58,014 nt of DNA. Source: Nitrospirota bacterium. Its GTDB lineage: Bacteria > Nitrospirota > Thermodesulfovibrionia > Thermodesulfovibrionales > JdFR-85. Below, in pieces: positions 6,569-36,803 of this stretch (within the stretch, counting starts at the first letter, position 1; each line of letters begins with the position of its first letter). A program made the translations under genes and the position numbers. Where the stretch lies: contig JAYWMQ010000012.1 of the NCBI GenBank assembly GCA_035873375.1, positions 1-58,014 of the forward strand. The letters run 5' to 3'. Under the pieces are notes generated by a model, which saw only the letters and a list, made by a program, of their open reading frames with translations, did no database searches and was not told the DNA's origin.

Positions 6569-6650
6569 GTACTCCTCCTTGATTTATGCCTGAATTTATG
6601 CCCCCTTCCTTAAATACTATTCTACAGGATTTGTTCAGCTATAGGAAGTT

Positions 6651-6880
6651 ATATTAACCCGGCAACTATTCAGAGAGACATATTCGTCAAAATCAACCAC
6701 TTAAGAACTTGTTGTGTAAACTCTTGTTTTGTCACCCTGAACTTGTTTCAGGGTCTCATAAGTCTTTGATTCTTAGAGATTCTGAAATAAATTCAGAATG
6801 ACATATATCGTTTTTTTTCTGTTTGTGCAACAAACTTTTAACCAGCTAAAAACTCTGTATTTATTTTCCGGTTTAATAAA
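6651..6880 (+). repeat. Left arm of ~230-bp inverted repeat around the DUF401-like gene
   Basis: Bases 6651 to about 6880 recur in reverse complement at about 8254-8482. By eye only a handful of substitutions and one 1-base indel separate the arms. Each arm contains two nested palindromes, CCTGAACTTGTTTCAGG and ATTCTGAAATAAATTCAGAAT, which look like common intergenic repeat units. The outer ends read ATATTAACCCGGCAA; the inner ends read CGGTTTA. No reading frame in the arm looks real. The arm lies in the 506-base gap 6569-7074, which has no gene. Confidence 0.9.
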
Positions 6881-6906
6881 AAGGTTTTTCGGGTTTTTGG
6901 GGATAA

Positions 6907-7005
6907 TGCAACCACAGAGACACAGGGGCACAGAGTTTATAAAACGAGTTTTTAAATGCCTGATAAAATATTGACTTCTCGGTGTCTCTGTGTCTCTGTG
7001 GTTGT
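6907..7005. repeat. Inverted repeat of the CACAGAGACACAG family
   Basis: GCAACCACAGAGACACAGG near 6908 and CTGTGTCTCTGTGGTTGTA near 6988-7006 form an imperfect inverted repeat of about 27 bases with a ~40-base centre. A lone copy of the same unit (CTCTGTGTCTCTGTGGTTGTA) occurs at 48753-48773. It would fold into a long hairpin immediately upstream of the promoter of the next gene. This is a dispersed intergenic repeat; I see no coding content. Confidence 0.75.
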
Positions 7006-7057
7006 ATAAAGTTTTTGTTCTGAAAATGAATACACTGAAAATGGATACAATGCTTTC

Positions 7058-7066
7058 TGGTATAAT
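7058..7066 (+). promoter_or_regulatory. Extended -10 promoter, probably leaderless mRNA
   Basis: TGGTATAAT (7058-7066) is a perfect extended -10 element. The ATG of the downstream gene is at 7075, only 8 bases after the hexamer, so transcription would start at or 1-2 bases before the start codon. No Shine-Dalgarno sequence exists in front of the ATG, which fits a leaderless message. A good -35 hexamer is not visible, as allowed for extended -10 promoters. Confidence 0.55.
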
Positions 7067-7074
7067 TAAATCCC

Positions 7075-8256: not shown

Positions 8257-8482
8257 TAAACCGTCAAATAAATACAGAGTTTTTTAGCTGGTTAAAAATT
8301 TGTTGCACAAACAGAAAAAAAACGATATATGTCATTCTGAATTTATTTCAGAATCTCTAAAAATCAATGACTTATGAGACCCTGAAACAAGTTCAGGGTG
8401 ACAAAACAAGAGTTTACACAACAAGTTCTTAAGTGGTTGATTTTGACGAATATGTCTCTCTGAATAATTGCCGGGTTAATAT
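8254..8482 (-). repeat. Right arm of ~230-bp inverted repeat around the DUF401-like gene
   Basis: This is the reverse-complement partner of the arm at 6651-6880. It starts at the TAA of the DUF401-like gene and ends 5 bases before the ATG of the solute-binding protein gene, so it supplies the whole spacer between the two. It contains the same two nested palindromes; these could act as transcription terminators for the upstream gene. Confidence 0.9.
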
Positions 8483-8487
8483 CGAAT

Positions 8488-10119
8488 ATGCATAGAACGA
8501 GATTATTTATAACTGTATTAACATGTATTGCTGCCGCTCTCCTGTGGCTGACTGTGGTATTTGCTGCTGAGACAACCGGAGGGGAAGTGCCATCCTATGG
8601 AGACGCCCTTGTTGTGGGCTCTATCGGGGAGCCGAGCATACTTATTCCCATGCTTGCCGGTGACAGTGCCTCTCATGAGATTGCCGGCCTTATATTCAAC
8701 GGCCTGGTAAAATATGACACGGACCTTACAATAATAGGTGACCTTGCAGAGTCCTGGAAGATATCCGATGACGGCCTGACCATCACGTTTTACCTCAGGA
8801 AGGGTGTGAAGTGGGCTGACGGAGTGGAGTTTACTGCCGATGATGTGATGTTCGGCTACAGGACCATCATTGACGAAAAGACGCCGACGGCCTACAAGGA
8901 GGATTTCCTTCAGGTCAGGAAGGCCGAGGTCCTGGACAGGTATACCTTCAGGGTCACTTACGGAGAGCGCTTTGCACCTGCGCTCAGTACGTGGGGAAAC
9001 CTCCCTGTACTGCCACGGCATCTCCTTGAAGGAAAAGATATAACAAAGACAGCTTTTGGAAGAAACCCTGTTGGCCTGGGGCCCTTTAAACTGCAGCGAT
9101 GGGATTCGGGACAGAAACTCGTGCTTGCAGCGAACAAGGATTATTTTGAGGGAAGACCCTACCTCGATTACTACATATACAGGATAATCCCTGACCAGGC
9201 AACGATGTTTATGGAGCTCAGGGCCGGAGGGGTCGACCTGATGAGCCTTACACCCATACAGTACAGAAAACAGACTGATACCCCGTTTTACAGGAAAAAC
9301 TTTCAGAAATTCCGTTATCCTGTCTTTGCCTATACATACCTTGGATTTAATCTCAAACACCCCTTTTTCAGGGATATCAACGTGAGGAGGGCACTTGCCT
9401 ATGCCATAGATAAGGAAGAGATTATCGATGTGGTGCTTTTCGGCCTCGGCTCTGTGGCAACAGGCCCCTATGTCCCTGAGACCTGGCCATACAATCCTGC
9501 AGTCAGGAGGTATGAATATAACCCTGAGAAGGCAAAAGCAATACTCAGGGAGGCCGGCTGGGAGGACACGGATGGTGACGGCATCCTTGATAAGGACGGC
9601 ACCCCTTTTGAATTTACAATCCTGACAAATATGGGCAACAGCCTCAGGGAGCGGACTGCAACCATTATCCAGTGGAGGCTTAAGCAGATCGGTGTCAAGG
9701 TGAACATAAGGATACTCGAGTGGAGCACTTTTATTAATGAGTTTATTGACAAGAGGAGTTTTGAGGCAGTAATACTCGGCTGGTCGATAGGCCTTGACCC
9801 TGACCAATATGATATCTGGCATTCAAGCAAGACGGGTGAGAAGGAGTTTAATTTTGTATCTTATAAAAACAAAGAGGTGGACAGGCTGTTGGAGGAGGGG
9901 AGGAGGACTTTTGATATTGAGAAGAGGAAGAGGGCCTACTACAAGATACAGGAGATACTTGCAGAAGAGGTCCCCTATATCTTTCTCTACGTGCCTGACG
10001 CACTTCCGATAGTACATAAGAGGTTCAGGGGGATAAAACCTTCACCCATAGGCATATCCTACAACCTTCCAGAATGGTATGTGCCGAAGAAACTTCAGAG
10101 GCACCATTTGATACCATAA
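8488..10119 (+). CDS. Peptide/nickel-type ABC transporter substrate-binding protein (SBP family 5)
   Basis: The 543-residue protein has a signal peptide (about 1-28, cut after VVFA) and the family 5 solute-binding layout: GDLAESWKISDDGLTITFYL (about 86-105), the RKGVKWADG and ADDVMFGY motifs, and the NVRRALAYAIDKEEI helix near 305-320. It would bind a peptide or similar ligand in the periplasm and deliver it to an ABC permease. No permease or ATPase gene is adjacent, so it is an orphan binding protein. A DTDGDGILDKDG stretch near 361-372 looks like a calcium-binding loop. The ATG at 8488 lacks a Shine-Dalgarno sequence. Confidence 0.88.
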   Translation: MHRTRLFITVLTCIAAALLWLTVVFAAETTGGEVPSYGDALVVGSIGEPSILIPMLAGDSASHEIAGLIFNGLVKYDTDLTIIGDLAESWKISDDGLTITFYLRKGVKWADGVEFTADDVMFGYRTIIDEKTPTAYKEDFLQVRKAEVLDRYTFRVTYGERFAPALSTWGNLPVLPRHLLEGKDITKTAFGRNPVGLGPFKLQRWDSGQKLVLAANKDYFEGRPYLDYYIYRIIPDQATMFMELRAGGVDLMSLTPIQYRKQTDTPFYRKNFQKFRYPVFAYTYLGFNLKHPFFRDINVRRALAYAIDKEEIIDVVLFGLGSVATGPYVPETWPYNPAVRRYEYNPEKAKAILREAGWEDTDGDGILDKDGTPFEFTILTNMGNSLRERTATIIQWRLKQIGVKVNIRILEWSTFINEFIDKRSFEAVILGWSIGLDPDQYDIWHSSKTGEKEFNFVSYKNKEVDRLLEEGRRTFDIEKRKRAYYKIQEILAEEVPYIFLYVPDALPIVHKRFRGIKPSPIGISYNLPEWYVPKKLQRHHLIP

Positions 10120-25450: not shown

Positions 25451-26302
25451 CTAAGGTGATTGTTTTTTAATATAAGTGGTTGGCGCTATCCCGTCCGGAT
25501 CTTTCATCTGGGGAGTCGATGTAGTCATGGTAGCCGAATTATACTGGTCTGCCTCGGACAATGACACATAACCGTTCCCATCGTAGTCTGACCCAACGGG
25601 GGTTCCACAGGGGTCTTTTTCGTCCAGGGCATTAGGTAGGGTGTAGTGAAATTCCGCATGAGGGCGTCCGTTACACGTAGTAGAGATGGAGTAGGAGTTT
25701 TCCACACAGGTGGAAGAGGTGAGGGTGACCGTGTTGTTGCCGGATGAAGCCATGTTGTCGAGCATTCCCCCTGAATGGCAGGTCATTACGTCGACTGTAC
25801 GCTTCTTGTAGTTCGGCACGCTGCCCATGTATGTTGTCAGTTCCGTGTCTGTAACCGTCTCTCCGGTATTGCTGATATACATCGTGAGGTCGCATGAATC
25901 CGGGCCATAGCCGCCTCCGTGCCCCATCCACCAGACATAGAGATAGTCCCTGCTCTTTACCTTGGTGCCGAGCGTATTGAAGACAGACTGAATATTTGCC
26001 TTGTTCACGGCCATATCCGTAATGGCATGTCCATACTGGGTTGTGGCGTTGTAGTCTGCGTGTACCGTATTGAAATCGGTTCCATCTCCGTAGAGGACGT
26101 AAATCTTGTCATCCTTAAACCCGTTATCTCTCAACATGTTGTATTGCAGGTAAAGGTCGTACCACCACTCGGAGTTGTATGACACGTTGTCCGCCGTGAC
26201 CACGTTTGTGCTGATAAGGACGGCATATTTCTGGGCACAGCCGAAAGAAAGAACAATAAACAGACTGAGCATGCAAAGCGTGACCCTTCTTAAAACATAC
26301 AT
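25451..26302 (-). CDS. Exported clan CD cysteine protease (C13/legumain-like)
   Basis: The 283-residue protein starts with a signal peptide (about 1-22; SFGC could be a loose lipobox). The mature part has the clan CD fold pattern: strand YAVLIST, YDLYLQYNMLRDNGFKDDKI helix and strand, then strand-plus-His LYVWWMGHGGG (His128) and strand-plus-Cys TVDVMTCHSGG (Cys175), the catalytic dyad of legumain/caspase relatives. The segment 239-250 is a canonical EF-hand-type calcium loop (DYDGNGYVSLSE). The protein would act outside the cytoplasm; its substrate is unknown. It is the last gene of a three-gene operon with two other exported proteins, 36 bases after the middle gene. Confidence 0.75.
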   Translation of the reverse strand: MYVLRRVTLCMLSLFIVLSFGCAQKYAVLISTNVVTADNVSYNSEWWYDLYLQYNMLRDNGFKDDKIYVLYGDGTDFNTVHADYNATTQYGHAITDMAVNKANIQSVFNTLGTKVKSRDYLYVWWMGHGGGYGPDSCDLTMYISNTGETVTDTELTTYMGSVPNYKKRTVDVMTCHSGGMLDNMASSGNNTVTLTSSTCVENSYSISTTCNGRPHAEFHYTLPNALDEKDPCGTPVGSDYDGNGYVSLSEADQYNSATMTTSTPQMKDPDGIAPTTYIKKQSP

Positions 26303-26338
26303 GACAATCCTCCCTTTTCATAAGGTTATAAAAGAGGC

Positions 26339-28183
26339 CTATTTCTTCTTCAAGTTACCTGGATAGAGCCTGAAAACTCTCCCTGCCTGTCTATCTGTAT
26401 ACCAGAGGTATTGACCGTCATACGCAAGTGCCGCGGGTTTCTTCCCCTCGATATCTGCTATGAACTTCCTGGAGCGAAGCATTTCGTGTTCCCTGCCTTC
26501 AATGTTCCGCCTGTCGATCTTTGGGGGGAAGTCTTTACCGTTGTAGCAGATACTCCATAAATACTCGCCGTCCGAAGCAAGACCTCGGGGATTACAATCA
26601 GCATAAATACTCTTGATGATTTTACCGTCCTCAGGATCGACCTGGTTGAAGGAACTCGAGAACCCGGCATAAATGGCCGTCCAGAGGTATTTCCCATCCC
26701 AGGCAATACCTTCAAGGGATTTGAACCCCTTTCCCCTGGGTATCCTTATGGGTATGCTTCTGACGACCTGTCCGCTCTGAGGATCAATAGCGGTGATCTT
26801 CATCGTTTCTTCATCGGCTATCCATAACCGTTCTCCATCAAAGGTCAGGCCTTTCGGTTTTTTGATGTCAACCTTGAAGGTACTGACTACTGCTCCTGAG
26901 AGCGGATCCAGGCCACGAATCTTTTTGCTTGCCTTGTCAACAACCCAAAGCCTCTTTCCATCCCAAGCCAGGCCTTCTGCTTTTACAGACGGGAGGGGGA
27001 TAGAAAACTCCATTCTCGGCATACGGGTATATACGTGTTTTTTCTGGCTCACTCCTATCACCTTCCCGGCCGCCGTGACCTTCCAGAGAGGGAAGTAACG
27101 GCTGGTTACCACATCGCCCCGAGGGAAGACGAGTTCGGCCTCGGGTTTGAGCCTGCCTGCATTGCCTTCTATTTGCACGAGAGCGATCTTGATGGCTTCC
27201 TCCTTCGGCAGGTATCTTACAGGCTTGAAAACCCCGACTTCCTGAAACCCCCCTGTATAAGCGTTTACGATCACGGCTGCTGAAGCGTTTATACTGTCTG
27301 TCGAATAGGGGATGATGTAATAACCACCGTGTGCCTTATTGACAAGTAACGGTTTCAGCGGCCTTGCCTTCTTCAAAATCCTGTATTCTTTTAATTTGTA
27401 TATCTTTTCCCCCTTGATCCACCTGACTGCGGAAGCAAGGGCCTTGTCAGGAGGGATGATCCTGCCGACGAGTATCTCGGGAGGGGCAAGTGCGACCCCG
27501 CTGACAGTGGGGGGCTCTATGACGGCCACATACTTGCCCTGAAAACTGCTTCCCGTCTTGGAGACGGGAAGGAACTCGCTGTACCATGTGCTCCCGGAGA
27601 CGAATCTCTCGATTGACGGATCCCCGAGATCAACTGCGGGGTCATTGAACCAGACATATTGCAGGTTGACGGAAGTGGTTCCCGGGGAGGTGGGATCAAC
27701 GTCGGTTATAACCCCCCTGACGGCGATCCAGTGTTCCGTGTGTGAAGTATAGCTGTTGTGGGACAACGTGTCCTTCAATACTGCTACGGGATAACTGTTT
27801 CTTGTCATCCAGTAAGCAACCCAGAACATCAGTTTTTGGGGTGTGTTCCTGTTGTAAACATACCAGCTTCCCGTTGGTGTACAGAGGGAATTCATTGCCC
27901 CTTTCAACCCTTCCGGGTCTGTATCCCACATTGTTTCAACCTTGTTTCCCTGGATTGCGCCCCATACGTCTTCCTGCAGTACCGTGCAACTCCCCGAGGG
28001 GTATCCCTCCATGAGCATCTGCCCTGTGGCAGGGCCGCACCAGTTCAGGGCCTCTTCCGGATGGTCAGGCACGGTCAGCATCACACTATGTAAGGGGTCT
28101 GCCCATGCCAGGGTATTAATCATCAAGGCGGTTACTGCAACTATCGTGCTGATACTTTTAATGATCGATTTTCTATTCAGCAT
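26339..28183 (-). CDS. Exported papain-like (C39-type) protease fused to a beta-propeller
   Basis: The 614-residue protein has a signal peptide (about 1-28, cut after AWA). Residues about 30-190 look like a papain-fold peptidase: NWCGPATGQMLM with candidate nucleophile Cys49, EHWIAVRGV with His151, and VWFNDP with Asn180, resembling C39/C70-type domains. A central region (about 230-385) is unassigned. Residues about 390-612 hold at least five repeats of the form GLAWDGKxLWxxDxxxxKIxxLDPxxG, blades of an NHL/YncE-type beta-propeller. The gene is 27 bases after the upstream beta-propeller gene and 36 before the C13-like protease gene. I infer a secreted or surface protease whose propeller recognises a partner. 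Confidence 0.68.
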   Translation of the reverse strand: MLNRKSIIKSISTIVAVTALMINTLAWADPLHSVMLTVPDHPEEALNWCGPATGQMLMEGYPSGSCTVLQEDVWGAIQGNKVETMWDTDPEGLKGAMNSLCTPTGSWYVYNRNTPQKLMFWVAYWMTRNSYPVAVLKDTLSHNSYTSHTEHWIAVRGVITDVDPTSPGTTSVNLQYVWFNDPAVDLGDPSIERFVSGSTWYSEFLPVSKTGSSFQGKYVAVIEPPTVSGVALAPPEILVGRIIPPDKALASAVRWIKGEKIYKLKEYRILKKARPLKPLLVNKAHGGYYIIPYSTDSINASAAVIVNAYTGGFQEVGVFKPVRYLPKEEAIKIALVQIEGNAGRLKPEAELVFPRGDVVTSRYFPLWKVTAAGKVIGVSQKKHVYTRMPRMEFSIPLPSVKAEGLAWDGKRLWVVDKASKKIRGLDPLSGAVVSTFKVDIKKPKGLTFDGERLWIADEETMKITAIDPQSGQVVRSIPIRIPRGKGFKSLEGIAWDGKYLWTAIYAGFSSSFNQVDPEDGKIIKSIYADCNPRGLASDGEYLWSICYNGKDFPPKIDRRNIEGREHEMLRSRKFIADIEGKKPAALAYDGQYLWYTDRQAGRVFRLYPGNLKKK

Positions 28184-28210
28184 ATTGTCTCCTCCTTTGT
28201 CTTTTCACCC

Positions 28211-30088
28211 CTATGGACAGGTAAAACCGCATTCTGCCAAGCCGCAGGTTGTTGTTGTGTTGCTGATGGTTACGGACTTGTAATAATTCCGCCGGAGAAT
28301 ATAGTCGTACCCGTTGATTGTTCTTTTTCCTGCCCTGAGCTCAAAGGTGTGGGCACAGTTACACTTTGCACTCCACATTACAGGTTTTCCGATGGAGTCT
28401 TTGGGGATATAGTTCAGGACTCCGCTCCATGCATGAGGGGGAAGCGGAGCAATGTGGTTACTGTAAAAATCACGGTATCCGTCTATAAACTCATGTTTAT
28501 TATCTCCCCAGAGGGCCCTGAGCCAATAGAAAAGGAGATGGTTGTTTGGGTCATAGGCCGTTATCTTGAAGTAATACTCGTTATTGCCCTCGGTGACGAT
28601 GTCGCAGGGTTTTATCAACTTGTCCGGCGAGCCTTTCTGCCAGATCCCGACGATCTTGACATCAGGAGGTGTGTTGTCGACAATCAGGGTCAGCTCGTTG
28701 GGCACCGGCAGCGAAGCCAGCGAGGATGTTATGTCCACACCTCCGGCATTATATATTTTCACACGGAAGGAGTAGGTACCGTTTTCACCGCTCGGCCACC
28801 TCATCATCCAGTAAGGATACCCCCATAATTCAGAATGATACAGGCCGTCACCCTCTACCGGTATCTCGTATTTGTAGCCGTCAACGGCTGGAGCGACATT
28901 AAAGGGTTTGTACTTCATTACTGTGCTGTCCCACCTGCTCACTGTCCAGCTATGACCCAGATAAGAGGTAGTTCCGTCCCTGGTCATTTCAACGGCATAG
29001 TATTTGGCCCCGAGCGCAAGAAACCGGGTGAAGTTGCCGAAGATATTCAGCGTGCCTCCAAAGGGGGAATGTCTCACCTTATAGAAATATCCCGGGAGGG
29101 TGGATACGGTATCGGCATAGCCGTTGATGATGCTCGATACAGGCACGTGTCCGACGGCCATGAATATGGGCCCGGTAAGCTCAATCAGATCGATCTTTAT
29201 TATCTCGTTTTCCGCTGTGGCAAAGAGGGGAGTGCCTGTTCCCTTGACAGCCAGGCCAGTGGGCCGCCAGGGCATTGCGAGTCCGGCTGTTATATTGAAA
29301 AGGACAGGGGTTCCCGGCAGGTCGAGTCTCGATATCCTGTTTGCCGGCTCCCTTTCAGCGACGTAGAGGGAGTTTTGACCTGAATCCGTCCAGGCCAGGA
29401 AGAATGGAGCGACCAGGCTGGTACCGGCCACCCCGTTGGTCACTACATCTTCCACCTTGAGGCCCAGAGTGAGATCAATCTTGGATATACGTGCAGGTGC
29501 GCGTTGTTCGGTAACATAGGCGTATGCCCGGTCTCCTGTTATGGCAAGTCCCACCGGGTTTTCCAGGTTCTTGTAAACCGGTGTCTTGGCTCCCGTCATA
29601 AGATCAATACGCCTCAATCTTCCGTCGTCATAGCCGACCACGTAGGCATGATTGTTCGGAATGTCGAGAACGAGCTGCTGCGGTGCTCCCAGGTTATAGG
29701 TAACAAGGTTTTTTGTCCCTGTGGCGATATCAACTCTCCATAATCCTCCTGTGCCTGGATTGTCCCTCGTCGTGACATAAGCGTAGCCGTGGTCAATGTC
29801 AAGCTCGACGTCTTCTGCATGAGAAAACCCGGTGGCTACAATTTCAACGACGCATGAGAGGGCAATGTTGTTTTCACATTCGGGGGTAAGGAGTATGCGT
29901 TTCAGGTCCGGAGTATTATTCTCGACAAAATAGAGATGGTTGTTCGTTTCATCAATGGCAGCCCCCACTGCCGCACTCAGCCCTGTAACAATCGGCGTCT
30001 TGGTTGCGGCCAGAGTGAAATCTGCTCCTGTAAACAATATGCCCACACACGTTAAAGACAAAAATAGATACCTCAGACTCCTAACCAT
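28211..30088 (-). CDS. Exported beta-propeller protein, function unknown
   Basis: The 625-residue protein starts at ATG 30088 behind GGAGGTGATC and carries a signal peptide (about 1-28, ending LAA). Residues about 30-315 form YncE/NHL-like repeats such as GLSAAVGAAIDETNNHLYFV, NNHAYVVGYDDGRLRRIDL and DRAYAYVTEQ, enough for a six- or seven-bladed propeller. The C-terminal half (about 320-625) is rich in aromatic residues and beta strands and has a cysteine cluster at the end (CGLAECGFTC), suggesting disulfides in an extracytoplasmic protein. It is the first gene of the exported-protein operon. No enzyme motif is seen. Confidence 0.65.
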   Translation of the reverse strand: MVRSLRYLFLSLTCVGILFTGADFTLAATKTPIVTGLSAAVGAAIDETNNHLYFVENNTPDLKRILLTPECENNIALSCVVEIVATGFSHAEDVELDIDHGYAYVTTRDNPGTGGLWRVDIATGTKNLVTYNLGAPQQLVLDIPNNHAYVVGYDDGRLRRIDLMTGAKTPVYKNLENPVGLAITGDRAYAYVTEQRAPARISKIDLTLGLKVEDVVTNGVAGTSLVAPFFLAWTDSGQNSLYVAEREPANRISRLDLPGTPVLFNITAGLAMPWRPTGLAVKGTGTPLFATAENEIIKIDLIELTGPIFMAVGHVPVSSIINGYADTVSTLPGYFYKVRHSPFGGTLNIFGNFTRFLALGAKYYAVEMTRDGTTSYLGHSWTVSRWDSTVMKYKPFNVAPAVDGYKYEIPVEGDGLYHSELWGYPYWMMRWPSGENGTYSFRVKIYNAGGVDITSSLASLPVPNELTLIVDNTPPDVKIVGIWQKGSPDKLIKPCDIVTEGNNEYYFKITAYDPNNHLLFYWLRALWGDNKHEFIDGYRDFYSNHIAPLPPHAWSGVLNYIPKDSIGKPVMWSAKCNCAHTFELRAGKRTINGYDYILRRNYYKSVTISNTTTTCGLAECGFTCP

Positions 30089-30218
30089 GATCACCTCCGC
30101 TAAAATAAGGAATGTTTGCTTCTGATATTTTTCTGTTGGGTTGAGAAGCCTTTACGGCATGAGGTAGTGGATCTCTTATAAAAACTGTGGATCCCTCTAT
30201 TGTTCCGTCGGCAGTCTT

Positions 30219-30488: not shown

Positions 30489-31400
30489 CTAAGACCCAGG
30501 TTCCCCGCCGTTACCGGCCAGTCTGCCCTGGAAGAAGGCCTTTAATTCCTCTTCTTCCTCGATGCCGGTCATACGGCTTGGCAGGGCAGGGTGGGGAGTC
30601 TTCCCAATGACCCTTGTCTTCGTAATGCCACCGGGGTTGTATGGCAGTAAAGTGGCAGTGAGGCAGCCGGTCTTTTTTAGGAACCCGGCTATATCGGCAA
30701 GGTTCTCCCTGGTTGCCGTTGTCCCGGGGATGAGCGGAATCCGGGGAACAACAGGGACGGGAGCGTTCCTTGCGAGGTATTTGAAGTTTTCGAGTATCAG
30801 GCCGTTGTCCCTGCCGGTAAATTTCCTGTGCCTGTCTTCATCAAGAAGTTTCAGGTCAAAGAATATCAGGTCGATACAGGGGAGGAGCTTCTCATTGAAC
30901 TCCTCAAGATTGAACATCCCCGATGTCTGAATTGCTACATGTACTCCTTCCTCCTTCAGCCTCTGCATCACCGCTCCGACGTAATCCATGGATAGTGTTG
31001 GTTCGCCGCCGGAGAATGTAACACCGCCGCCGGAGGTCTCATAGAAGATGCGTTCCTTCAGGAGCGTCTCTACAAGGAGATCGACATGATAACAGGAGCC
31101 GATTGCACTGAGTGCCGTTGAAGGGCACTCAGTGCAGCATGTCCCGCAGGCCGTGCATTTGTCCCTGATTACCCGTTCATCCTCCGGTCTCATCGAGATC
31201 GCCCCTTCGGGGCAGACCTCTCTGCAGCTGCCGCAACCTATGCAGCGGTCTTTGTAGAAAGCGATCTCGGCTGCAGGCGAGATCGACTCGGGGTTGTGGC
31301 ACCATGCACACGATAATGGACACCCTTTCATGAAGACGGTGCTCCTGATGCCGGGACCGTCGTCGAGAGCAAAGTGGCGTATATCGGATATCAAGGGCAT
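30489..31400 (-). CDS. Glycyl radical enzyme activase (radical SAM, two [4Fe-4S] ferredoxin inserts)
   Basis: The 303-residue enzyme would install the glycyl radical on its partner enzyme with S-adenosylmethionine. The radical-SAM motif is CPLSCAWC (Cys27/31/34), followed by two ferredoxin-type clusters (Cys53/56/59/63 and Cys82/85/88/92) and the SGGEPT motif. The two extra clusters are typical of activases for the CutC/glycerol dehydratase/decarboxylase branch and absent from PflA of pyruvate formate-lyase. It lies 1 base after the SCP2-like gene, downstream of the glycyl radical enzyme. Confidence 0.92.
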   Translation of the reverse strand: MPLISDIRHFALDDGPGIRSTVFMKGCPLSCAWCHNPESISPAAEIAFYKDRCIGCGSCREVCPEGAISMRPEDERVIRDKCTACGTCCTECPSTALSAIGSCYHVDLLVETLLKERIFYETSGGGVTFSGGEPTLSMDYVGAVMQRLKEEGVHVAIQTSGMFNLEEFNEKLLPCIDLIFFDLKLLDEDRHRKFTGRDNGLILENFKYLARNAPVPVVPRIPLIPGTTATRENLADIAGFLKKTGCLTATLLPYNPGGITKTRVIGKTPHPALPSRMTGIEEEEELKAFFQGRLAGNGGEPGS

Positions 31401-31401
31401 A

Positions 31402-31863
31402 TTATACTTCCCCTGTGGCTATCAGCTGGAGCCGTTTGGCCATGTAAGCGAATTTGTATACGTAGTTGAGATTACCGTTGAAGGTCACATCCTGTCTCAG
31501 GAGCGAGCCGAGTATGTCGGGTTTCGGTGAGAGGAGATAGCCCATAAGGGCCCTTCCGTTTCTGAAGACCACGGTGACATCCGTATCCTTCAGTTCCTTC
31601 TCGCAGACCTTCATCCTGTTGTCCTTGAATGCTACGGCCACTGTTATACTATTGTCACGGCTCCTGAAGAGGTAGCGGCCGTTAAAATCCTTTATGTTCC
31701 GCCTGAAATCCCTGTCCAGGAAAAAGGCAAGGCTCATGAATTTCAGGAGCATCTCAAGAAATTCTTCGGCTGCTTCAGATTCGAGACACTGTAGAAACCT
31801 CTTTCCGAGCCTTTTTGCCCTGAGAGGCCGAAGCAGCAACCAGTTCAGTATCTTCTCAAACAT
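31402..31863 (-). CDS. SCP2 sterol-carrier-like domain protein
   Basis: From ATG 31863, with AAGGAGG 5 bases ahead, the product is 153 residues. After an amphipathic N-terminal region (about 1-55) the rest resembles the SCP2 lipid-carrier fold: a strand pair with VAVAFKDNRMKVCEKELKDT, then VTVVFRNGRALMGYLLSPKPD and the ending LLRQDVTFNGNLNYVYKFAY, a pattern I associate with SCP2-type proteins. Such domains hold fatty acyl chains or other hydrophobic ligands. It is encoded between the glycyl radical enzyme and its activase, which suggests a role with a hydrophobic substrate or membrane contact; that is inference. Confidence 0.6.
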   Translation of the reverse strand: MFEKILNWLLLRPLRAKRLGKRFLQCLESEAAEEFLEMLLKFMSLAFFLDRDFRRNIKDFNGRYLFRSRDNSITVAVAFKDNRMKVCEKELKDTDVTVVFRNGRALMGYLLSPKPDILGSLLRQDVTFNGNLNYVYKFAYMAKRLQLIATGEV

Positions 31864-31885
31864 TTTTGCCTCCTTGTCGGTCTCT

Positions 31886-34366
31886 TCATTCGAATGCAAG
31901 CATCGAGCGGTATTCTTCTGGAAACGGGACGGCCTTTCCGGTGCCCAGGTCGTAGGCAGTCCTTGTGATGATCTCGTCCTTCATGGCCTCGTTAAGGTCT
32001 TTAAAGTATGCCGAGTATCCCGAGACCCTCACCAGGAGCTCAGGATATTTTTCAGGATTATTCTTGGCGTCAATAAGGTCTTCGTAAGACATTATATTGA
32101 ACTGTACATGGAGGCCTCCGTAACGGAAGTAGGACTCGACGGCCTGTGCAAAGGTTTTTATGTCACCGTTGTTTTTTACTCTCGGGTATTTCAGGTTCAG
32201 GGCCTCGCCGCTCGGGATGCAGAGACCGTCGAGTCCGCCCACGGCCTTGAGACAGGCCGAGAGGTCACCTGCCGCCTGTGAGACTGGAGTAATGCCGCTC
32301 GCAAAGACCTTGTAAGCCTTTCGACCGTTAGGAAGGGCTCCCGACAGTTTCCCCTGTCCTGCATGGTTGGTCATCGTCCAGTAGCCCGGCCTGTATTTGC
32401 CGCCCCTGTAGTTTGTATGCCCCTGGTAGAAGTTGTACAGGAAGCGGATCAGGTTCTGCGAGTTTTTGACGGCGATGGGATCGTTGGTGCCGTATTTTGG
32501 TGTTTTGTATACAAGGTAAGCGTGAAGCTTTTCGTTTCCTTCGAAGTTGTCCCTGAGCGCCTGCAGCAGTTCGGCAAAGGTGCATTTTCTGTCGATGAAG
32601 ACCGCCTTCTCTATGGCGCTGAGGGAGTCCACGGTGTCCGCAAACCCGATGTGTGTGGCGCCTGAGGAGTTGTAGGTTGCACCCCCATGGATAAGGTCCT
32701 TGCCTTTTTTTATGGGACCTTCAAAGAACGCCGACAGCAGCGGGGTGGGGAGTATCTCCTGGTGGACACGGCCGAAATACTCGTTCAGCTTTATCGCCTC
32801 TCCTATGAGCCATTTCAATTGAGACTCAAAGGCCTCCCGGAACTCGTCAAAACTTGCAAACCCGGCCGGGTCCCCGGTCTTCGGGCCTATCTGTTCATCG
32901 CCCGTTGCAGGCCTCTTGCCGTTGTACAGGGTGAGCTCCAGGGTGGAGACGAGGTTGAATATGATCGAGCTTGATGCGTCATAGCTCCTTCCTGCTGAGG
33001 CGAGCTCCACGCAGCCGATTATAGCGTAATCCCTTGCGTGCTCTGTTGATGTGCCCTGGTTTTCGAGGACTTTTATATCCACGATATCATTATGGAAGGC
33101 AGGAACGGACCTTGTGTTGACGATCACCTCGGCTACCCTGTCACGATACTCTTCCGTGTTCTTTTCGTAATGGTACCTCGCGTTCAGGCTCGGGTCCCTC
33201 AGTTTCAGGAGTTCCGTGACCCGCAGCATGACATAAGTGAGGTCGTTGACGGCATCCTCCCCGTTTTCGTCAACACCCCCGACAGTGACTGCCGGGACTG
33301 TTCCCGCACCACCGAAGAGTTCTTCCGAGGTCTCGGGTACGAGGTTGGTGTTGTCATTGAGCTTGAGCCAGAGGCAGCCGATGAGTTCCATGGCCTCCTT
33401 GACGGTGAGTATGCCGTTGTCTATATCGTTACGATAATACTTGTAGAGCACCTGATCAAGCCTTCCCGGGCTTATCGCCATGTTTATGTTTTCAGCATGT
33501 ACGGCCACTTGGCAGATCCACAGGGAGTTGACAGCCTCCCGGAAGGTACTCGCCGGTTTTGCAGGTACCCTGGCGCATATCCCGCTCATCTTCAGAAGGT
33601 TCTCCCTCCGTGACGGGTCTTTTTCAACCCTCGCGAGTTCAGCCGCCTTTTTGCTCAGGTTCCCGGCGTAATCGAGGACTCCCTTCATGACCGTCTGTAC
33701 TGCCTGGTAGAACGCAAGACTCTGCCTGTCGCCGGGTGTATTTACTCCCTTGTCCCTGACTTCCACCTCCCCTGTCCCGGCCTCCTCGATGATTCCCTCG
33801 ATTCCCTTGCCGAGGACCTTTTTGTAGTCGGGGACTGTATGAGAGAGGGTGCCTGCCTTGCTTGCAAGGAAGAAGACTATACGCTCGAAGAGTCTCATGC
33901 AGTCGGGGTTGTTGAATTTCTTTCTCGTGTATTCAAGGATATTGCGTTCCATCCAGTAGGGGAATATATCGAAGTTCAGCTCCCCGGCATCTTCCCTGGA
34001 GAGGATCAGGGGGTTTTTCCCCCTTGTGCTTATGGTGTCGAGCTCCGGCCAGATGGTCATCCCCGTAAGCTCCTGGTAGACAGGTGCACCGAAGGGCTTT
34101 GATGTTGTGCTCCCTGCAAGCAGGTTATCATCGAAGAAGACCGGTTTCCTGTTTGACAGGAAATAGGCTACTGCCTTTGCATACCTCGTCTCCATGGGTT
34201 CATCCGGGGAAGACATGTCTCTGAGGTAGCGGGTGGTGTACCTTGCCCTTTCAATGCAGACCTCCGGCCTGGTTTTAAGGAGATTCTCTCTCAAGGTTCT
34301 GAGGAGATCCAGGTTCTCTAAGGTATACTCACGTAACCTGATGTCTTTTAAAGTCGTAACGCTCAT
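31886..34366 (-). CDS. Glycyl radical enzyme of the dehydratase/lyase/decarboxylase branch, substrate unknown
   Basis: The 826-residue protein starts at ATG 34366 behind GGGAGG. The glycyl radical loop RVSGYSAYF places the radical at Gly783, and the active-site thiyl residue is Cys452 in IIGCVEL with Glu454 two residues on, the Cys-x-Glu arrangement of CutC, glycerol dehydratase, isethionate lyase and arylacetate decarboxylases; pyruvate formate-lyase has Cys-Cys instead. The ISPGRLDQVLYKYY segment near 325 is typical. The sequence after the motif (ASAGRSYDASSS) differs from the PQxPGK(T) that I recall for CutC and relatives, so I do not assign a substrate. Activase, lipid-binding protein and two membrane proteins accompany it. 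Confidence 0.88.
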   Translation of the reverse strand: MSVTTLKDIRLREYTLENLDLLRTLRENLLKTRPEVCIERARYTTRYLRDMSSPDEPMETRYAKAVAYFLSNRKPVFFDDNLLAGSTTSKPFGAPVYQELTGMTIWPELDTISTRGKNPLILSREDAGELNFDIFPYWMERNILEYTRKKFNNPDCMRLFERIVFFLASKAGTLSHTVPDYKKVLGKGIEGIIEEAGTGEVEVRDKGVNTPGDRQSLAFYQAVQTVMKGVLDYAGNLSKKAAELARVEKDPSRRENLLKMSGICARVPAKPASTFREAVNSLWICQVAVHAENINMAISPGRLDQVLYKYYRNDIDNGILTVKEAMELIGCLWLKLNDNTNLVPETSEELFGGAGTVPAVTVGGVDENGEDAVNDLTYVMLRVTELLKLRDPSLNARYHYEKNTEEYRDRVAEVIVNTRSVPAFHNDIVDIKVLENQGTSTEHARDYAIIGCVELASAGRSYDASSSIIFNLVSTLELTLYNGKRPATGDEQIGPKTGDPAGFASFDEFREAFESQLKWLIGEAIKLNEYFGRVHQEILPTPLLSAFFEGPIKKGKDLIHGGATYNSSGATHIGFADTVDSLSAIEKAVFIDRKCTFAELLQALRDNFEGNEKLHAYLVYKTPKYGTNDPIAVKNSQNLIRFLYNFYQGHTNYRGGKYRPGYWTMTNHAGQGKLSGALPNGRKAYKVFASGITPVSQAAGDLSACLKAVGGLDGLCIPSGEALNLKYPRVKNNGDIKTFAQAVESYFRYGGLHVQFNIMSYEDLIDAKNNPEKYPELLVRVSGYSAYFKDLNEAMKDEIITRTAYDLGTGKAVPFPEEYRSMLAFE

Positions 34367-34446
34367 AATGTCCTCCCGGTCTCTCTCCGCCGGCGTGACG
34401 TGGTGAAGCCTTTTGCCGGACGCGGTAATTGTTTTCAGTCGGTACT

Positions 34447-35007
34447 TCAGTCGGTACTTATGTTGCGAACATATAAATAGCATCCTGCCAGAGATCCCCA
34501 GAAAAATACGGTAAGGACGAGCCAGTATATGAAGAACGGGTTGTCCAGGAAAGAGACAAAGTCGGCATTCCTGTAATTCTCATAAGTGGTGGCAATGTTA
34601 AAAGTAATATCGCGGGTTAGGTAGACTATCAAGAGAATAAGTATTAAAAAAGATATATATGACGCCCTCAGCAACGATGTCCTGCCCCTCTCTATCAGGA
34701 GACGTCCTGACTCAAAACCGGCAATGGTCGGTATGAAGGACATTGCGATTAACATGAATGCCGAAAGTGCCAGGTAAGGTGTTCCCTGGACATTATCTAC
34801 CCATTTCCAGAAGTAATTTGTTTCCCACGCAGGCCAGCCGAGGAAAAAGTATATTATCACCGGCGTGGTTATCAGGTAGGCGAATGTTATCGCTATGGCC
34901 CTGATCCTGGAGACCGTTACCGTATCTCCTCTCGTAACGGCATCTCTCGATGCATCGGCAATGACCTGGCCTGCAACGATTCCTACGGGTATATCGATTA
35001 ACAGCAT
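34447..35007 (-). CDS. Small polytopic membrane protein, paralogue 1 of the glycyl radical locus
   Basis: From ATG 35007, with GGAGGG in front, the product is 186 residues with about five membrane helices. It starts LLIDIPVGIVAGQVIADASR and carries GWPAWETNYFWKW after the second helix. The protein encoded just upstream has the same two landmarks, so they are paralogues. I know no family name. Such a pair could form a heteromeric membrane complex, for example for substrate or product transport; that is inference from the operon only. Confidence 0.6.
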   Translation of the reverse strand: MLLIDIPVGIVAGQVIADASRDAVTRGDTVTVSRIRAIAITFAYLITTPVIIYFFLGWPAWETNYFWKWVDNVQGTPYLALSAFMLIAMSFIPTIAGFESGRLLIERGRTSLLRASYISFLILILLIVYLTRDITFNIATTYENYRNADFVSFLDNPFFIYWLVLTVFFWGSLAGCYLYVRNISTD

Positions 35008-35063
35008 CCCTATCCCTCCTTGATGTTGCTCTATGGTTAGCAGATTAACAGCCTGTTTAGGAG

Positions 35064-35639
35064 TTATTCCGCTATCTTGCCGGAAAACCTCTTTATCCAG
35101 ATACCGAATATCACGGACGTGACGACGAAATACCCCATTACGGCAAGCCATGACCAGAAGAACGAAGGGGTGTTGAAGAGGGTGGTTGTTTCATTCGGGA
35201 CTGCATGGAACTCATTATACGTTCCGATATGGTACCACGTTAAGGGCCAAAGTATGAAGGGTAGCAGGGTTGCAATAACGCTCAGCACGGATAACAGCTT
35301 GACGGTTCCCTCTTTGCCTCGCCGGTAGAGGGCGTGTCCTGTGAAATAACTTCCGGTGCCGAGCAGGATCATGGAGATATTGAATGCTATGTAAAAGAAC
35401 GCCACCGGTGGATTGAAGGCAGGTTTCTCGATCCATTTCCACCAGTACATGGATTCCCAGGCCGGCCATCCGATGAGCAGGAACATTCCAACAGGAGCAA
35501 AAAAGAGTGCAAAATACAGGCTGATCGGGCCAGTCAGCCTGTTGGTAAAGATATTTTCCTCTTTCTTCAGATACTTCTTGCTCAAAAGTGCGAAGATCTG
35601 TCCTGCCGCAATTGCCCCGGGTATATCTACCTGTATCAT
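35064..35639 (-). CDS. Small polytopic membrane protein, paralogue 2 of the glycyl radical locus
   Basis: The 191-residue protein starts at ATG 35639 with TGGAGGAAAAG in front and has about five membrane helices. Shared landmarks with its neighbour are VDIPGAIAAGQIFALLSK at the N-terminus and GWPAWESMYWWKW after the second helix. It is the first gene of the presumed operon (this gene, its paralogue, glycyl radical enzyme, SCP2-like gene, activase). No catalytic motif is seen. Confidence 0.6.
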   Translation of the reverse strand: MIQVDIPGAIAAGQIFALLSKKYLKKEENIFTNRLTGPISLYFALFFAPVGMFLLIGWPAWESMYWWKWIEKPAFNPPVAFFYIAFNISMILLGTGSYFTGHALYRRGKEGTVKLLSVLSVIATLLPFILWPLTWYHIGTYNEFHAVPNETTTLFNTPSFFWSWLAVMGYFVVTSVIFGIWIKRFSGKIAE

Positions 35640-35984
35640 CTTTTCCTCCAGAGTAGTGAAGTTGTTTGGTCTTTTTTATGTCAAATCCGACTGCCCAAGG
35701 GGATGTCATTTTTGAAAAATGAATAATTTCAAGAGGTTTAAATCGATCTTATTTAATAGTATCAGTCTCCGGCGTCTAAGTTCTTGACCTCTTTTGCTTT
35801 TCTTTTGACCTATTTTGCTTTTGGCGAAGGCTGGTTATAATCAGGTAGGCTATCTTTTTTTGTGGGCTGACCTGTGATCGCTTCAGCATTACGATTAATC
35901 TGCTTCTATTCCTTGCATTGGGATGTTCTCCAGCCCGTTCAATTCCTCTATTCCGCTCCCTTTCCAATAGCGGGGCCGGTGCGG
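35640..35984. other. 345-base gap upstream of the glycyl radical operon
   Basis: No gene is apparent. The part near the operon should hold its promoter; TTGACA occurs at about 35680-35685 on the minus strand but without a well-placed -10. About 35780-35830 is a pyrimidine-rich stretch (TTCTTGACCTCTTTTGCTTT and following) resembling the interior of the element at 30219-30356. An AraC-type regulator is encoded just beyond, so binding sites for it are expected here, though I could not pick out a repeat. Confidence 0.4.
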
Positions 35985-36803
35985 TCAATTAAGGCTGTAG
36001 CCCTTCGGTTTTTCTTTGCATAAGTGCTTGAAGTGAGAGAAGGGGCTCTTCTTTTTCCGTAGCGACTTCTTGTAAACCCTCGGAGAGGTCTTCATTATCC
36101 TCTTGAACGTCCTTGTGAAGTGGAACTGATTTGTGAAGCCGCATGCAAAGGCGATGTCACTCATGGAGAGGCCGTCTTCCCTGAGCATCTTTATAGCCTT
36201 GGAGATACGCAGTCTGTTTACATACATGATGAATGTGATGCCGGTTTCCTTCTTGAAAGTCCTCTCGAAGCATGATATGCTCTTCCCCGCCTCTTTGGCG
36301 ATCTCGGAAAGTTTTATGCGGCTGGTGTAGTTTTTATTGATATATCTGATTGCCCTGTGGATGCTGCTCCAGGGACTTTGAGGTAACTCCTCGGTGACGT
36401 GGTTAATGCCTAATGCAGCTCTGATGCTCTTTTTCAACTCGCACATGACAAGGGGTTTTTTGAAATAATCTTTTACCCCAAGCCGGAAAACAGTGACTGC
36501 GAGCTCTTCAGAACCGCAGCGGGTTACTATGATTACCGGCACAGCGGGTTTGACATATCTGAAGAATTGAAGCAGTTCCGTGCATGAGCTATCGCCAAAA
36601 TGATCAAGAAGCACAAGGTCTATGTCATTCCGGAGGAAAGACTCACAAATTTTATCCTGATAGGTTTCAACGATTACACTGCACTCTCTCAGTGAAGAAA
36701 CAAGACCCTTGTGGTATTGCCCTGCATCTGAATCTATCAGTAGTATGCGGTGTTTTCCCTCTAAGCCGTTTGATTTAATGGTGTTTCTCCCTCTAAATGA
36801 CAA
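35985..36803 (-). CDS. Response regulator with AraC-type DNA-binding domain
   Basis: The 272-residue protein has a receiver (about 18-130) with acidic residues at the start (LLIDSDA), acceptor Asp67 in LVLLDHFG and a Lys in DYFKKP, then an AraC/XylS double helix-turn-helix (about 148-250) with IKLSEIAKEAGKSISCFERT and MSDIAFACGFTNQFHFTRTF. It is encoded upstream of the glycyl radical operon on the same strand and is the likely regulator of that locus. No cognate kinase is adjacent. The basic tail (KKSLRKKKSPFSHFKHL) is unusual. Confidence 0.88.
   Translation of the reverse strand: MSFRGRNTIKSNGLEGKHRILLIDSDAGQYHKGLVSSLRECSVIVETYQDKICESFLRNDIDLVLLDHFGDSSCTELLQFFRYVKPAVPVIIVTRCGSEELAVTVFRLGVKDYFKKPLVMCELKKSIRAALGINHVTEELPQSPWSSIHRAIRYINKNYTSRIKLSEIAKEAGKSISCFERTFKKETGITFIMYVNRLRISKAIKMLREDGLSMSDIAFACGFTNQFHFTRTFKRIMKTSPRVYKKSLRKKKSPFSHFKHLCKEKPKGYSLN

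Follow-up and report, generated by a model that had tools for sequence, protein, structure and literature searches.

A glycyl radical enzyme clade nearly always paired with a predicted SCP2-fold protein and its possible role with hydrophobic alcohols

Introduction

The CxE eliminases among the glycyl radical enzymes (GREs), namely CutC, HypD, glycerol/propanediol dehydratase, HpsG/HpfG and IslA, have in common a PFL-like barrel, a Cys-x-Glu motif, a radical glycine and a ferredoxin-type activase. The functionally characterised eliminases that the available text of PMC8473560 lists act on small, polar molecules. Here, a GRE locus is described from a 58,014-nucleotide stretch of Nitrospirota DNA (the window). 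Its GRE has the features of the CxE eliminase superfamily: PFL-like and Gly_radical domains, Cys-x-Glu, the radical glycine and an adjacent radical SAM activase. Together with an SCP2-fold protein and the activase it probably forms a conserved anaerobic unit, an SCP2-fed radical eliminase acting on a hydrophobic alcohol.

Results

Organisation of the locus

All six minus-strand genes described in an initial annotation of the window were found where it had placed them (Table 1). Open reading frames were longest-frame script calls, made with no gene finder, and the likely starts of the SCP2-fold protein and of the second membrane protein give genes shorter than the listed frames. With the ATG at position 34366 (MSVTT...) as the start of the GRE, the Cys-Val-Glu motif and the radical glycine fall exactly on the residue numbers assigned before. 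A scan for promoters and terminators found 9 and 11, compared with 6.2 and 7.6 expected. The gaps along m1, m2, GRE, SCP2 and activase are 56, 80, 22 and 1 bases, and a single transcription unit from m1 to the activase is therefore plausible.

Table 1. Features of the GRE locus, with positions in the window
Feature	Position	Strand	Evidence
GRE, 825 aa, SCP2-linked eliminase-type clade	31886..34366	-	PFL-like, Gly_radical, trees
Cys452-Val453-Glu454 codons (putative thiyl radical Cys, CxE motif)	33005..33013	-	counted from start 34366
His176 codon	33839..33841	-	alignment, 64/64; site per PMC8473560 (available text)
Gly783 codon (putative glycyl radical)	32018..32020	-	G in 63/64, remaining row a gap
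SCP2-fold protein (predicted), 153 aa, proposed hydrophobic-substrate carrier/presenter	31402..31863	-	neighbourhood, relatives, fold model
Radical SAM activase, two ferredoxin-type clusters	30489..31400	-	TIGR02494, 284.9 bits
m1, GWPAWE-family membrane protein, 191 aa	35064..35639	-	family alignment
m2, paralogous GWPAWE-family membrane protein, 186 aa	34447..35007	-	family alignment
REC-AraC regulator	35985..36803	-	HTH_18, Response_reg

The GRE lies outside the characterised classes tested

The GRE matches the Pfam families PFL-like (E 1.2e-169) and Gly_radical (E 8.1e-18) and is the sole Gly_radical match in the 2.67-Mb genome. Four assignments were rejected on profile scores: choline TMA-lyase CutC (456.6 bits against a TIGR04394 cut-off of 1050, with His and Val at the Asp216 and Phe395 sites), trans-4-hydroxyproline dehydratase HypD (453.7 against 1100, NF043068), the sulfopropanediol enzymes HpsG/HpfG (463.1 for NF048011 and 413.4 for NF048009, cut-off 1000 each) and arylacetate decarboxylase (306.6 for NF033718 and 229.7 for NF033715, cut-offs 1100 and 1150). 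Glycerol/propanediol dehydratase was rejected on residues, Met296, Ala297 and Ser466 standing where references L089 and L119 carry His, Ser and Asp; in the numbering of that dehydratase, we take the substrate-binding sites to be His281, Ser282 and Asp447.

In two trees, both built without X-succinate synthases, arylacetate decarboxylases, PFL, PflD and YbiW and both with long branches flagged by the tree program, the family forms a clade of its own outside the tested characterised classes. The SCP2-linked GREs (47/47) fall into one clade against 17 references with an SH-aLRT of 100. For the first tree, family GREs had to be at least 760 aa long (64 rows); two of the three rows labelled Isl, L121 and L124, are HpsG by NCBIfam, and row GD_L119 is HpfG. 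The phylogeny proposed in the initial annotation thus gave no clustering inside a characterised clade among those tested, and the pocket differs as well. Judged by profiles, residues and trees, the GRE belongs to none of the known substrate classes tested.

A hydrocarbon-activating enzyme of the X-succinate synthase type is highly improbable. The hydrophobic context would suit it, and the record titles of some relatives suggest seep or oil, but the CxE motif and an eliminase-type His are present, and profile scores against PDB entries reach 261.1 bits for MasD and 258 bits for TutD (benzylsuccinate synthase) compared with 400-490 for CutC entries. The X-succinate label alone is not decisive, because PDB entry 8iof, titled benzylsuccinate synthase alpha subunit, scores 410.6.

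The active-site pocket

The pocket was read off alignments with no GRE model, and two alignments disagree on HypD at sites 296-297. His176, Asn295, Met296, Ala297, Ala354, Cys452, Glu454, Trp663 and His668 are invariant in the 64 full-length family members. According to the available text of PMC8473560, the 176 site corresponds to CutC Asp216, HypD His160 and IslA Gln193, and the common aromatic packing on the substrate is CutC Phe395, HypD Phe340 and IslA Trp374 (the 357 site). At sites 354, 357, 464 and 469 the family carries A, V/A/T, A/S/M and M/I/L, whereas eight non-SCP2 references mostly carry Y, F, W and Y/F; the comparison shows 10 of 20 references, two of them SCP2-fused sisters. As far as the alignments tell, the eliminase Glu and the dehydratase-type His are retained in the pocket, but four common eliminase aromatics are lost, and it differs from the pockets of the characterised classes compared. 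The aromatic loss is no proof of a greasy substrate, because aromatics are missing at 354 and 357 from the HpfG-type reference L119 too.

The adjacent protein is predicted to have an SCP2 fold

The window protein alone has no Pfam SCP2 match, although SCP2 is the commonest family among its relatives (24/59 members at E<=1, best 1.4e-4; the alignment took in 59 of 68 members). A profile search of PDB sequences yielded no SCP2 match either, so that a fold comparison was required. Foldseek placed the predicted model (pLDDT 86.9) next to the UbiJ SCP2 domain (6h6p; probability 1.00, E 1.4e-5, TM 0.51/0.65), the closest folds being the SCP2 domains of UbiJ and of alkylsulfatases. The earlier description of the protein as SCP2-like is thus upheld by the relatives and the predicted fold, but not by the single sequence. 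Carriage of a lipid is our proposal for this predicted SCP2 fold; SCP2 folds can also act as protein-contact domains, which weighs against a carrier role.

The SCP2-fold protein is a near-obligatory partner of the GRE

A scan seeded with GRE peptides only gave 77 loci. The SCP2 gene is the next gene in 62 and fused to the GRE C terminus in 6 (68/77 in total), and in the other nine the contig ends at most 527 bases past the GRE. The C-terminal fusions (L028, L037, L038, L045 and the near-copies L051 and L053) are single open frames with a linker of 9-19 residues. Fusion at the other end occurs in the sister GREs of about 990 aa from Desulfoluna limicola; in all four the SCP2-like domain is N-terminal (E 4e-13 to 5e-8). 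The 297 Desulfobacterota genomes gave 45 SCP2-like matches: 28 share one frame with a GRE match and lie on its 5' side, 14 follow a GRE on the 3' side at a distance of up to 1 kb, and 3 are apart, so that 42/45 are GRE-linked. The L169 genome holds SCP2 and activase genes without an adjacent GRE, and two more SCP2 matches, weak or partial, have no GRE within 1 kb. SCP2 was found in ten of 245 sampled Nitrospirota genomes, and the nine checked besides the window's own all have a GRE match (9/9). The conservation on which the initial annotation had staked its reading therefore stands: this clade has a near-obligatory SCP2 partner. Across 32 loci the GRE distances track those of SCP2 (r 0.81, or a partial r of 0.50 when the activase is controlled for), but the correlation with the activase is higher (0.89), and common inheritance alone may account for the former. 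A search of open-access literature, with most subscription journals outside its scope, gave no paper joining GREs with SCP2 proteins.

The same pairing could be read differently, with the SCP2-fold protein as a structural small subunit serving to shield or regulate the radical, and with a small, polar substrate; the beta and gamma subunits of benzylsuccinate synthase or HPAD are the model. Near-obligate pairing and fusion would suit a subunit too, but to our knowledge none of the small subunits of known GREs has an SCP2 fold. The small polar substrates of the eliminases in the available text of PMC8473560 also speak for this reading, whereas the loss of the aromatic pocket lining and the lipid-carrier types among the closest folds speak against it, and we consider it improbable.

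Activase, membrane proteins and regulator

The activase, described earlier as carrying two ferredoxin clusters, exceeds the TIGR02494 cut-off (174.35) in NCBIfam, has both clusters and is present in 61/77 loci, some of them cut. The membrane proteins m1 and m2 are, as claimed, one family (18-row alignment with the GWPAWE and IP landmarks). Their proposed conservation holds in part: the genes are present in only 13/77 loci, but among the 245 Nitrospirota genomes they occur only where an SCP2-GRE pair exists (3/3). The pair is accessory. The family has no Pfam match above cut-off, no notable PDB sequence match and no Foldseek match at E<=0.001; in a second structural comparison the best Z was 7.2, with unrelated transporters. 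The regulator was correctly recognised as REC-AraC (HTH_18 2.4e-22; Response_reg 6.9e-7, 29.9 bits, slightly under the cut-off of 30.2). However, it lies beside the cluster in 2/77 loci (the window and L070, some loci being cut), and was set aside as a local neighbour instead of a component of the GRE unit.

Proposed mechanism

In the favoured mechanism, the activase would place a glycyl radical on Gly783, from which the radical would move to Cys452. Cys452 could then take hydrogen from the hydroxyl-bearing carbon of a hydrophobic substrate while Glu454 holds or deprotonates the hydroxyl, and His176 may aid departure of the neighbouring OH or OR in a 1,2-elimination (dehydratase or lyase), the reaction type of other CxE eliminases. 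The SCP2-fold protein would bind the substrate by its greasy part and deliver it to the enlarged, aromatic-poor GRE pocket. Where present, m1 and m2 probably anchor the unit to the membrane or aid substrate exchange. The initial annotation had proposed a hydrophobic or membrane-linked substrate beyond the known enzymes; exclusion of the known classes tested bears out the second half of this statement, and we infer the first.

Neighbouring genes and possible lipid substrates

Shell-protein and aldehyde or alcohol dehydrogenase genes were absent from the three window neighbours scanned. No dehydrogenase, shell or CoA-ligase family had at least two members among 107 neighbours from the window's clade (at most two same-strand ORFs of at least 140 aa per side, plus ORFs inside the cluster; single-member families only partly listed). 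The noted absence of microcompartment and dehydrogenase genes holds within these limits. It would agree with lipid biosynthesis or modification, in which the GRE would remove water from a hydroxylated membrane lipid, or from a precursor of one, to yield an unusual lipid of anaerobes, m1 and m2 being its membrane partners. The same holds for the scattered distribution of relatives from Nitrospirota to Bacteroidota and for the membrane family in some of the loci. However, some fused sisters adjoin catabolic genes, and the hydrolases at several loci of the window's clade are a better fit to turnover than to synthesis; a biosynthetic role is judged quite unlikely.

The 89 neighbours of fused SCP2-GREs (18 loci) comprise 84 of 99 ORFs, 15 that looked antisense by eye having been dropped, and 5 from L131, L132 and L134. 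They include TetR regulators (8), aldehyde ferredoxin oxidoreductase (4), AMP-binding ligase (4), MlaE lipid permease (4), FGGY kinase (3), SDR (3) and Zn-ADH (3). At L174 two of these exceed their cut-offs, the kinase as GlpK (739 bits against 498) and the permease as a member of the MlaE family (275.3 against 212.2), whereas the ligase, closest to fatty-acid CoA ligase models, is under cut-off (737 versus 832). DUF6765 occurs in 47/77 family loci, and in 36/36 aligned rows (36 of 46 members) H6, H79, H135, D139, H143, H191 and D199 are invariant, a His/Asp pattern that presumably resembles trinuclear zinc phospholipase C. Its match to Pfam Zn_dep_PLPC is weak (E 0.044), a search for a phospholipase C relative in the PDB gave no such match, and no paper containing the term DUF6765 was found in the literature search. 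At L166, a gene that looks patatin-like from the start of its sequence adjoins the membrane gene. A protein of about 820 aa (C4), which by eye gave the impression of a double GXWXG-DUF4334 protein, was rejected as such (profile comparison probability 0.2); its PDB search gave no convincing relative, with one match at E 0.08.

These neighbours raise a sharper, catabolic form of the preferred explanation, an ether-lipid lyase cleaving 1-O-alkylglycerol without oxygen, which seems unlikely at present. Phospholipases would remove head group and acyl chain to leave 1-O-alkylglycerol; Cys452 would take the C2 hydrogen and Glu454 the proton of the C2 hydroxyl, and the alkoxide would leave with the aid of His176 to give fatty alcohol and hydroxyacetone. 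Alternatively, attack at C3 might give 3-alkoxypropanal. The fatty alcohol or aldehyde would then be oxidised and activated to acyl-CoA. In this doubtful proposal, the SCP2-fed GRE would either cut the alkyl-oxygen-glycerol linkage itself or remove water from the glycerol diol, with collapse of the ether as the result. The system might have spread by transfer among anaerobes that live in sediments, vents, seeps and guts, with carrier and enzyme fused at either end in some branches, and with other, unfused branches gaining membrane partners and the phospholipase-C-like DUF6765.

The glycerol kinase, aldehyde oxidoreductase, acyl-CoA-ligase-like and MlaE genes beside some fused GREs, the DUF6765 residues and the putative patatin-like gene fit ether-lipid cleavage, as do the single matches to acyl-CoA dehydrogenase, glycerol kinase and AFOR_C in the window's own genome; the available texts of PMC9192799 and PMC7911779 are cited in support. 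On the other hand, the block of oxidoreductase, ligase, MlaE and kinase is found in only four related loci (L173, L174, L176 and L179, GREs 75-93% identical), and no such family has at least two members among the 107 neighbours of the window's clade. Fused and unfused GREs do not have the same residues at pocket sites 296, 297, 357 and 464, and DUF6765 has no match in the window genome (in a search without positive control). The literature search gave nothing on anaerobic ether-lipid cleavage by radical enzymes.

Discussion

If the preferred reading, an SCP2-fed eliminase for a hydrophobic alcohol, is correct, a clade near-always paired or fused with a lipid-carrier-type protein would extend GRE chemistry to hydrophobic alcohols or lipids. 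This suggests a new route for anaerobes to handle fatty or membrane molecules. The ligand of the SCP2 partner would be a direct handle on the GRE substrate, and the system is experimentally approachable because the record titles place relatives in Desulfoluna limicola ASN36, Desulforhopalus sp. IMCC35007 and Desulfosediminicola flagellatus IMCC35005, all named strains. Were ether lipids the substrate, their anaerobic recycling would be explained. The only described ether-lipid-cleaving enzyme, alkylglycerol monooxygenase, is an oxygen- and tetrahydrobiopterin-dependent membrane enzyme that yields a fatty aldehyde (PMC3617469). It is a functional parallel to the bold ether-lipid reading alone, and no homology is claimed.

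Compared with the known CxE eliminases, the window GRE has His176 at the site of HypD His160, but it scores far under the equivalog cut-offs, forms a separate clade, has lost the aromatic lining and adds an SCP2 partner or fusion, with no shell family in two or more neighbours. Its best single-sequence PDB match is PFL2 of Archaeoglobus fulgidus (2f3o, 439.7 bits), which carries the PDB title pyruvate formate-lyase 2 and which we take to have no assigned function. The match is distant, the family motif GCVELAxxGRSYDASSS not being shared, and 2f3o has GCVEIAPFGNSFTSSDA in the alignment. UbiJ and the alkylsulfatases SdsA1 and Pisa1 have the predicted SCP2 fold in common with the window protein, at 12-18% identity over the aligned part. 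In the alkylsulfatases the SCP2 domain is joined to an enzyme acting on alkyl chains, whereas in the window it is paired with a radical GRE.

A separate clade of glycyl radical enzymes

The glycyl radical enzyme (GRE) is the only Gly_radical match in the genome of the window (2.67 Mb, 63 contigs). Its residue numbering in the initial annotation (Cys452, Glu454 and Gly783) was borne out when the gene was read from the ATG at 34366 on the minus strand. From the first membrane protein gene (m1) to the activase gene, the intergenic distances are 56, 80, 22, and 1 bases. Downstream of the activase lie genes for proteins of 627 and 614 residues with weak repeat/propeller-type Pfam matches and for a C13-peptidase-like protein (E = 5.4e-6); conservation of these three as neighbours was not seen in relatives.

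Coordinates of the gene cluster and of features at related loci
Feature	Locus	Coordinates	Strand	Content
Six-gene cluster	window	30489-36803	minus	REC-AraC regulator, m1, m2, GRE, small protein, radical SAM activase
Genes 3' of activase	window	25451-30094	minus	627-aa, 614-aa and C13-peptidase-like proteins
Interrupted GRE	L011 (genome G048)	6382-8832	minus	in-frame TAA at codon 348
DUF6765	L086	8877-9965		PF20551
C4	L034	9374-11638
C4	L085	7441-9945
Decarboxylase-family gene	L024	8156-8833		PF06314
Type VI secretion genes	L084	453-7775		TssG by Pfam, rest by eye

With the NCBIfam models, the GRE scored 581 bits for the broad PFL2-3 subfamily (cut-off 678), and between 230 and 463 bits for the equivalogs HpsG, CutC, HypD, HpfG, indoleacetate decarboxylase, and 4-hydroxyphenylacetate decarboxylase (cut-offs 1000-1150). 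A four-row alignment scanned against a named genome collection yielded 76 loci. By their genome records, these come from Deltaproteobacteria and sulfate reducers, from Nitrospirota, Clostridia, Bacteroidota, and Acidobacteria, and from a Treponema and an ANME-2 bin. A quick maximum-likelihood tree places all 64 full-length members of the family together, split by a branch with an SH-aLRT of 100 from 20 other GREs. Two SCP2-fused sisters are in this reference set, besides enzymes that NCBIfam names as CutC, HypD, HpsG, and HpfG; it is without X-succinate synthases, decarboxylases, PFL, PflD, and YbiW. Four branches (designated family, N, fused, and far; 47 rows) likewise form one clade against 17 references with an SH-aLRT of 100, in a tree whose long branches were flagged by the program. 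The scores below every cut-off and the separate clade rule out that the enzyme is one of the tested known substrate classes. According to a review, the function of many abundant gut GREs is unassigned (PMC11574389).

On contig 60 of genome G005 (L003/L013) the GRE is present twice, in copies of 97% and 89%, the former broken near residue 30. The interrupted GRE of L011, in a Nitrospirota genome, is followed by open SCP2 and activase frames, and its stop codon reflects a pseudogene or an assembly error. In the ANME-2 bin (L080), where the system may be a contaminant, the GRE is divided over two frames.

The SCP2 partner and the membrane pair

The small protein of the window alone had no match to Pfam SCP2. 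Among 59 aligned relatives, SCP2 was the commonest Pfam family (24 at E ≤ 1, best 1.4e-4). An AlphaFold model of the protein (mean pLDDT 86.9) matched the folds of sterol carrier proteins, of alkylsulfatase SCP2 domains, and of UbiJ-SCP2, with E = 1.4e-5 and a probability of 1.00 for the best match. In 68 of 77 loci, a profile built in this analysis detected an SCP2-like stretch 3' of the GRE; in the remaining nine the contig ends at most 527 bases past the GRE. The stretch is a separate frame in 62 of the 68, and in six the GRE open frame runs on into it. The activase is present in 61 of 77 loci, some contigs being cut. Over 32 loci, GRE distances correlated with those of SCP2 (r = 0.81), activase (0.89), and DUF6765 (0.51), which shows co-inheritance and is not in itself proof of contact.

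The paralogous membrane proteins m1 and m2 align as one family, for which a model of m1 is helical and gave no convincing fold match in structure comparisons. The family occurs in 13 of 77 loci (some contigs cut). A survey of 245 Nitrospirota genomes gave five matches in three genomes, all three with the SCP2-GRE pair. Four matches lie near the pair; the fifth, on contig 143 of genome G098, is partial and interrupted by a stop, and the surrounding ORFs of at least 110 residues showed none of the set. The REC-AraC gene was seen next to the cluster at two loci, the window's own and L070 (88% identical).

Depth and forms of the pairing

SCP2 was found in 10 of the 245 Nitrospirota genomes, and in each of the nine besides the window's own, the same contig also gave a GRE match. 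Two of these nine (G199 and G213) encode in one row a distant GRE (31-32% identical), a 210-residue SCP2 protein, C4, and an activase. C-terminal fusions, following a linker of 9-19 residues, were found in L028, L037, L038, L045, and the near-copies L051 and L053. Because these loci are scattered over several places of the tree, more than one origin of this fusion is possible. In the sister GREs of Desulfoluna limicola (~990 residues), the SCP2 profile recognised an N-terminal domain in all four genes. The same profile gave 45 matches across 32 of 297 Desulfobacterota genomes: 28 lie 5' of a GRE match, most in open frames of ~1000 residues and some in truncated frames, another 14 follow closely on the 3' side of a GRE, and three have no GRE within 1 kb. 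One of these three (L169, genome G278 contig 441) has kept SCP2 and activase with no GRE beside them; upstream are a 298-residue ORF, nuclease-like by eye, and an ORF like the papain-like peptidases of other loci. Pairing with SCP2 is therefore old, and it exists in three forms: SCP2 has a gene of its own 3' of the GRE, is fused to the C-terminus, or is fused to the N-terminus.

The predicted substrate pocket

Pocket residues were assigned with an alignment in which 20 references (ten of them printed) accompany the 64 family members; the anchors were residues described in PMC8473560, in which CutC Asp216, HypD His160, and IslA Gln193 are one equivalent site and CutC Phe395, HypD Phe340, and IslA Trp374 are the substrate-packing aromatic. 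His176 of the window enzyme occupies the former site, whereas the aromatic is replaced in the family by Val (51 of 64), Ala (8), or Thr (5). At the position of CutC Tyr506 the family has Met, Ile, or Leu. Ala stands at 354 in 64/64 and at 464 in 59/64, where the references mostly have Tyr and Trp, respectively, and Asn295, Met296, Ala297, Trp663, and His668 are invariant in the family. The catalytic Glu and a dehydratase-type His are retained in what is predicted to be an opened, less aromatic pocket. The aromatic loss is a hint rather than proof because the HpfG reference L119 likewise has no aromatics at 354 and 357.

The fused GREs share with the family Ser175, His176, Asn295, Ser299, Trp663, His668, Cys452, and Glu454 (each 15/15), but depart from it at 296, 297, 357 (Asp/Asn), and 464 (His). 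Because of these differences, the substrates of fused and unfused enzymes need not be identical.

What the initial annotation observed, and its central proposal, hold: the enzyme belongs to a new GRE clade of wide distribution, in which SCP2 is a near-obligate partner, joined in some branches to one or the other end of the GRE, and the predicted pocket is distinct. A search of open-access papers found none linking GREs with SCP2.

Neighbouring genes and candidate substrates

The 107 non-core neighbours of the family include, as recurring types, papain-like peptidases (6), alpha-amylase (4), Amidase_3 (3), and PG_binding (3), and no dehydrogenase or shell-protein family occurs in two or more. 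L030, L042, L049, L073, L076, L085, L088, and further loci also encode hydrolases that act on various polymers (papain-like C1 peptidase, alpha-amylase, N-acetylmuramoyl-alanine amidase, XendoU), and a turnover or lysis programme is possible there.

DUF6765 is present in 47 of 77 loci (some contigs cut). Its alignment has an invariant His/Asp pattern reminiscent of zinc phospholipase C; the Pfam match to that family is weak (E = 0.044), a PDB search found no phospholipase C-type relative, and a literature search found no paper naming DUF6765. C4, an unnamed family (~820 residues), accompanies 29 of 77 GRE loci (some contigs cut) as well as the distant GREs of G199 and G213; it matched nothing in Pfam, and the PDB held no convincing relative. 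An acetoacetate-decarboxylase-family gene lies directly 5' of DUF6765-GRE in a Clostridia bin (L024), and in uncultured Desulfobacterium TRIP AH-1 (L084) Type VI secretion genes precede DUF6765-GRE.

The 89 neighbours of fused GREs at 18 loci include TetR (8), aldehyde ferredoxin oxidoreductase, AMP-binding ligase, and MlaE (4 each), and FGGY kinase, SDR, and Zn-ADH (3 each). In L174, kinase and permease were assigned above cut-off to GlpK and the MlaE family; fatty-acid CoA ligase models are nearest to the ligase, which scores under their cut-offs. The block of aldehyde ferredoxin oxidoreductase, ligase, MlaE, and kinase is found in four loci (L173, L174, L176, L179) with GREs 75-93% identical and, the genomes being related, counts as about one observation. 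Searches of the window's genome for acyl-CoA dehydrogenase, glycerol kinase, and AFOR_C gave a single match apiece, which says nothing either way on an ether-lipid pathway.

The best inference, and a fairly probable one, is that a hydrophobic alcohol is the candidate substrate and undergoes an elimination reaction. The boldest reading is ether-lipid cleavage, because the block would fit a GRE that releases a C3 unit together with a fatty alcohol or aldehyde; we regard this reading as unlikely. Alkylglycerol monooxygenase, described as the only enzyme cleaving alkylglycerol ethers, uses oxygen (PMC3617469).
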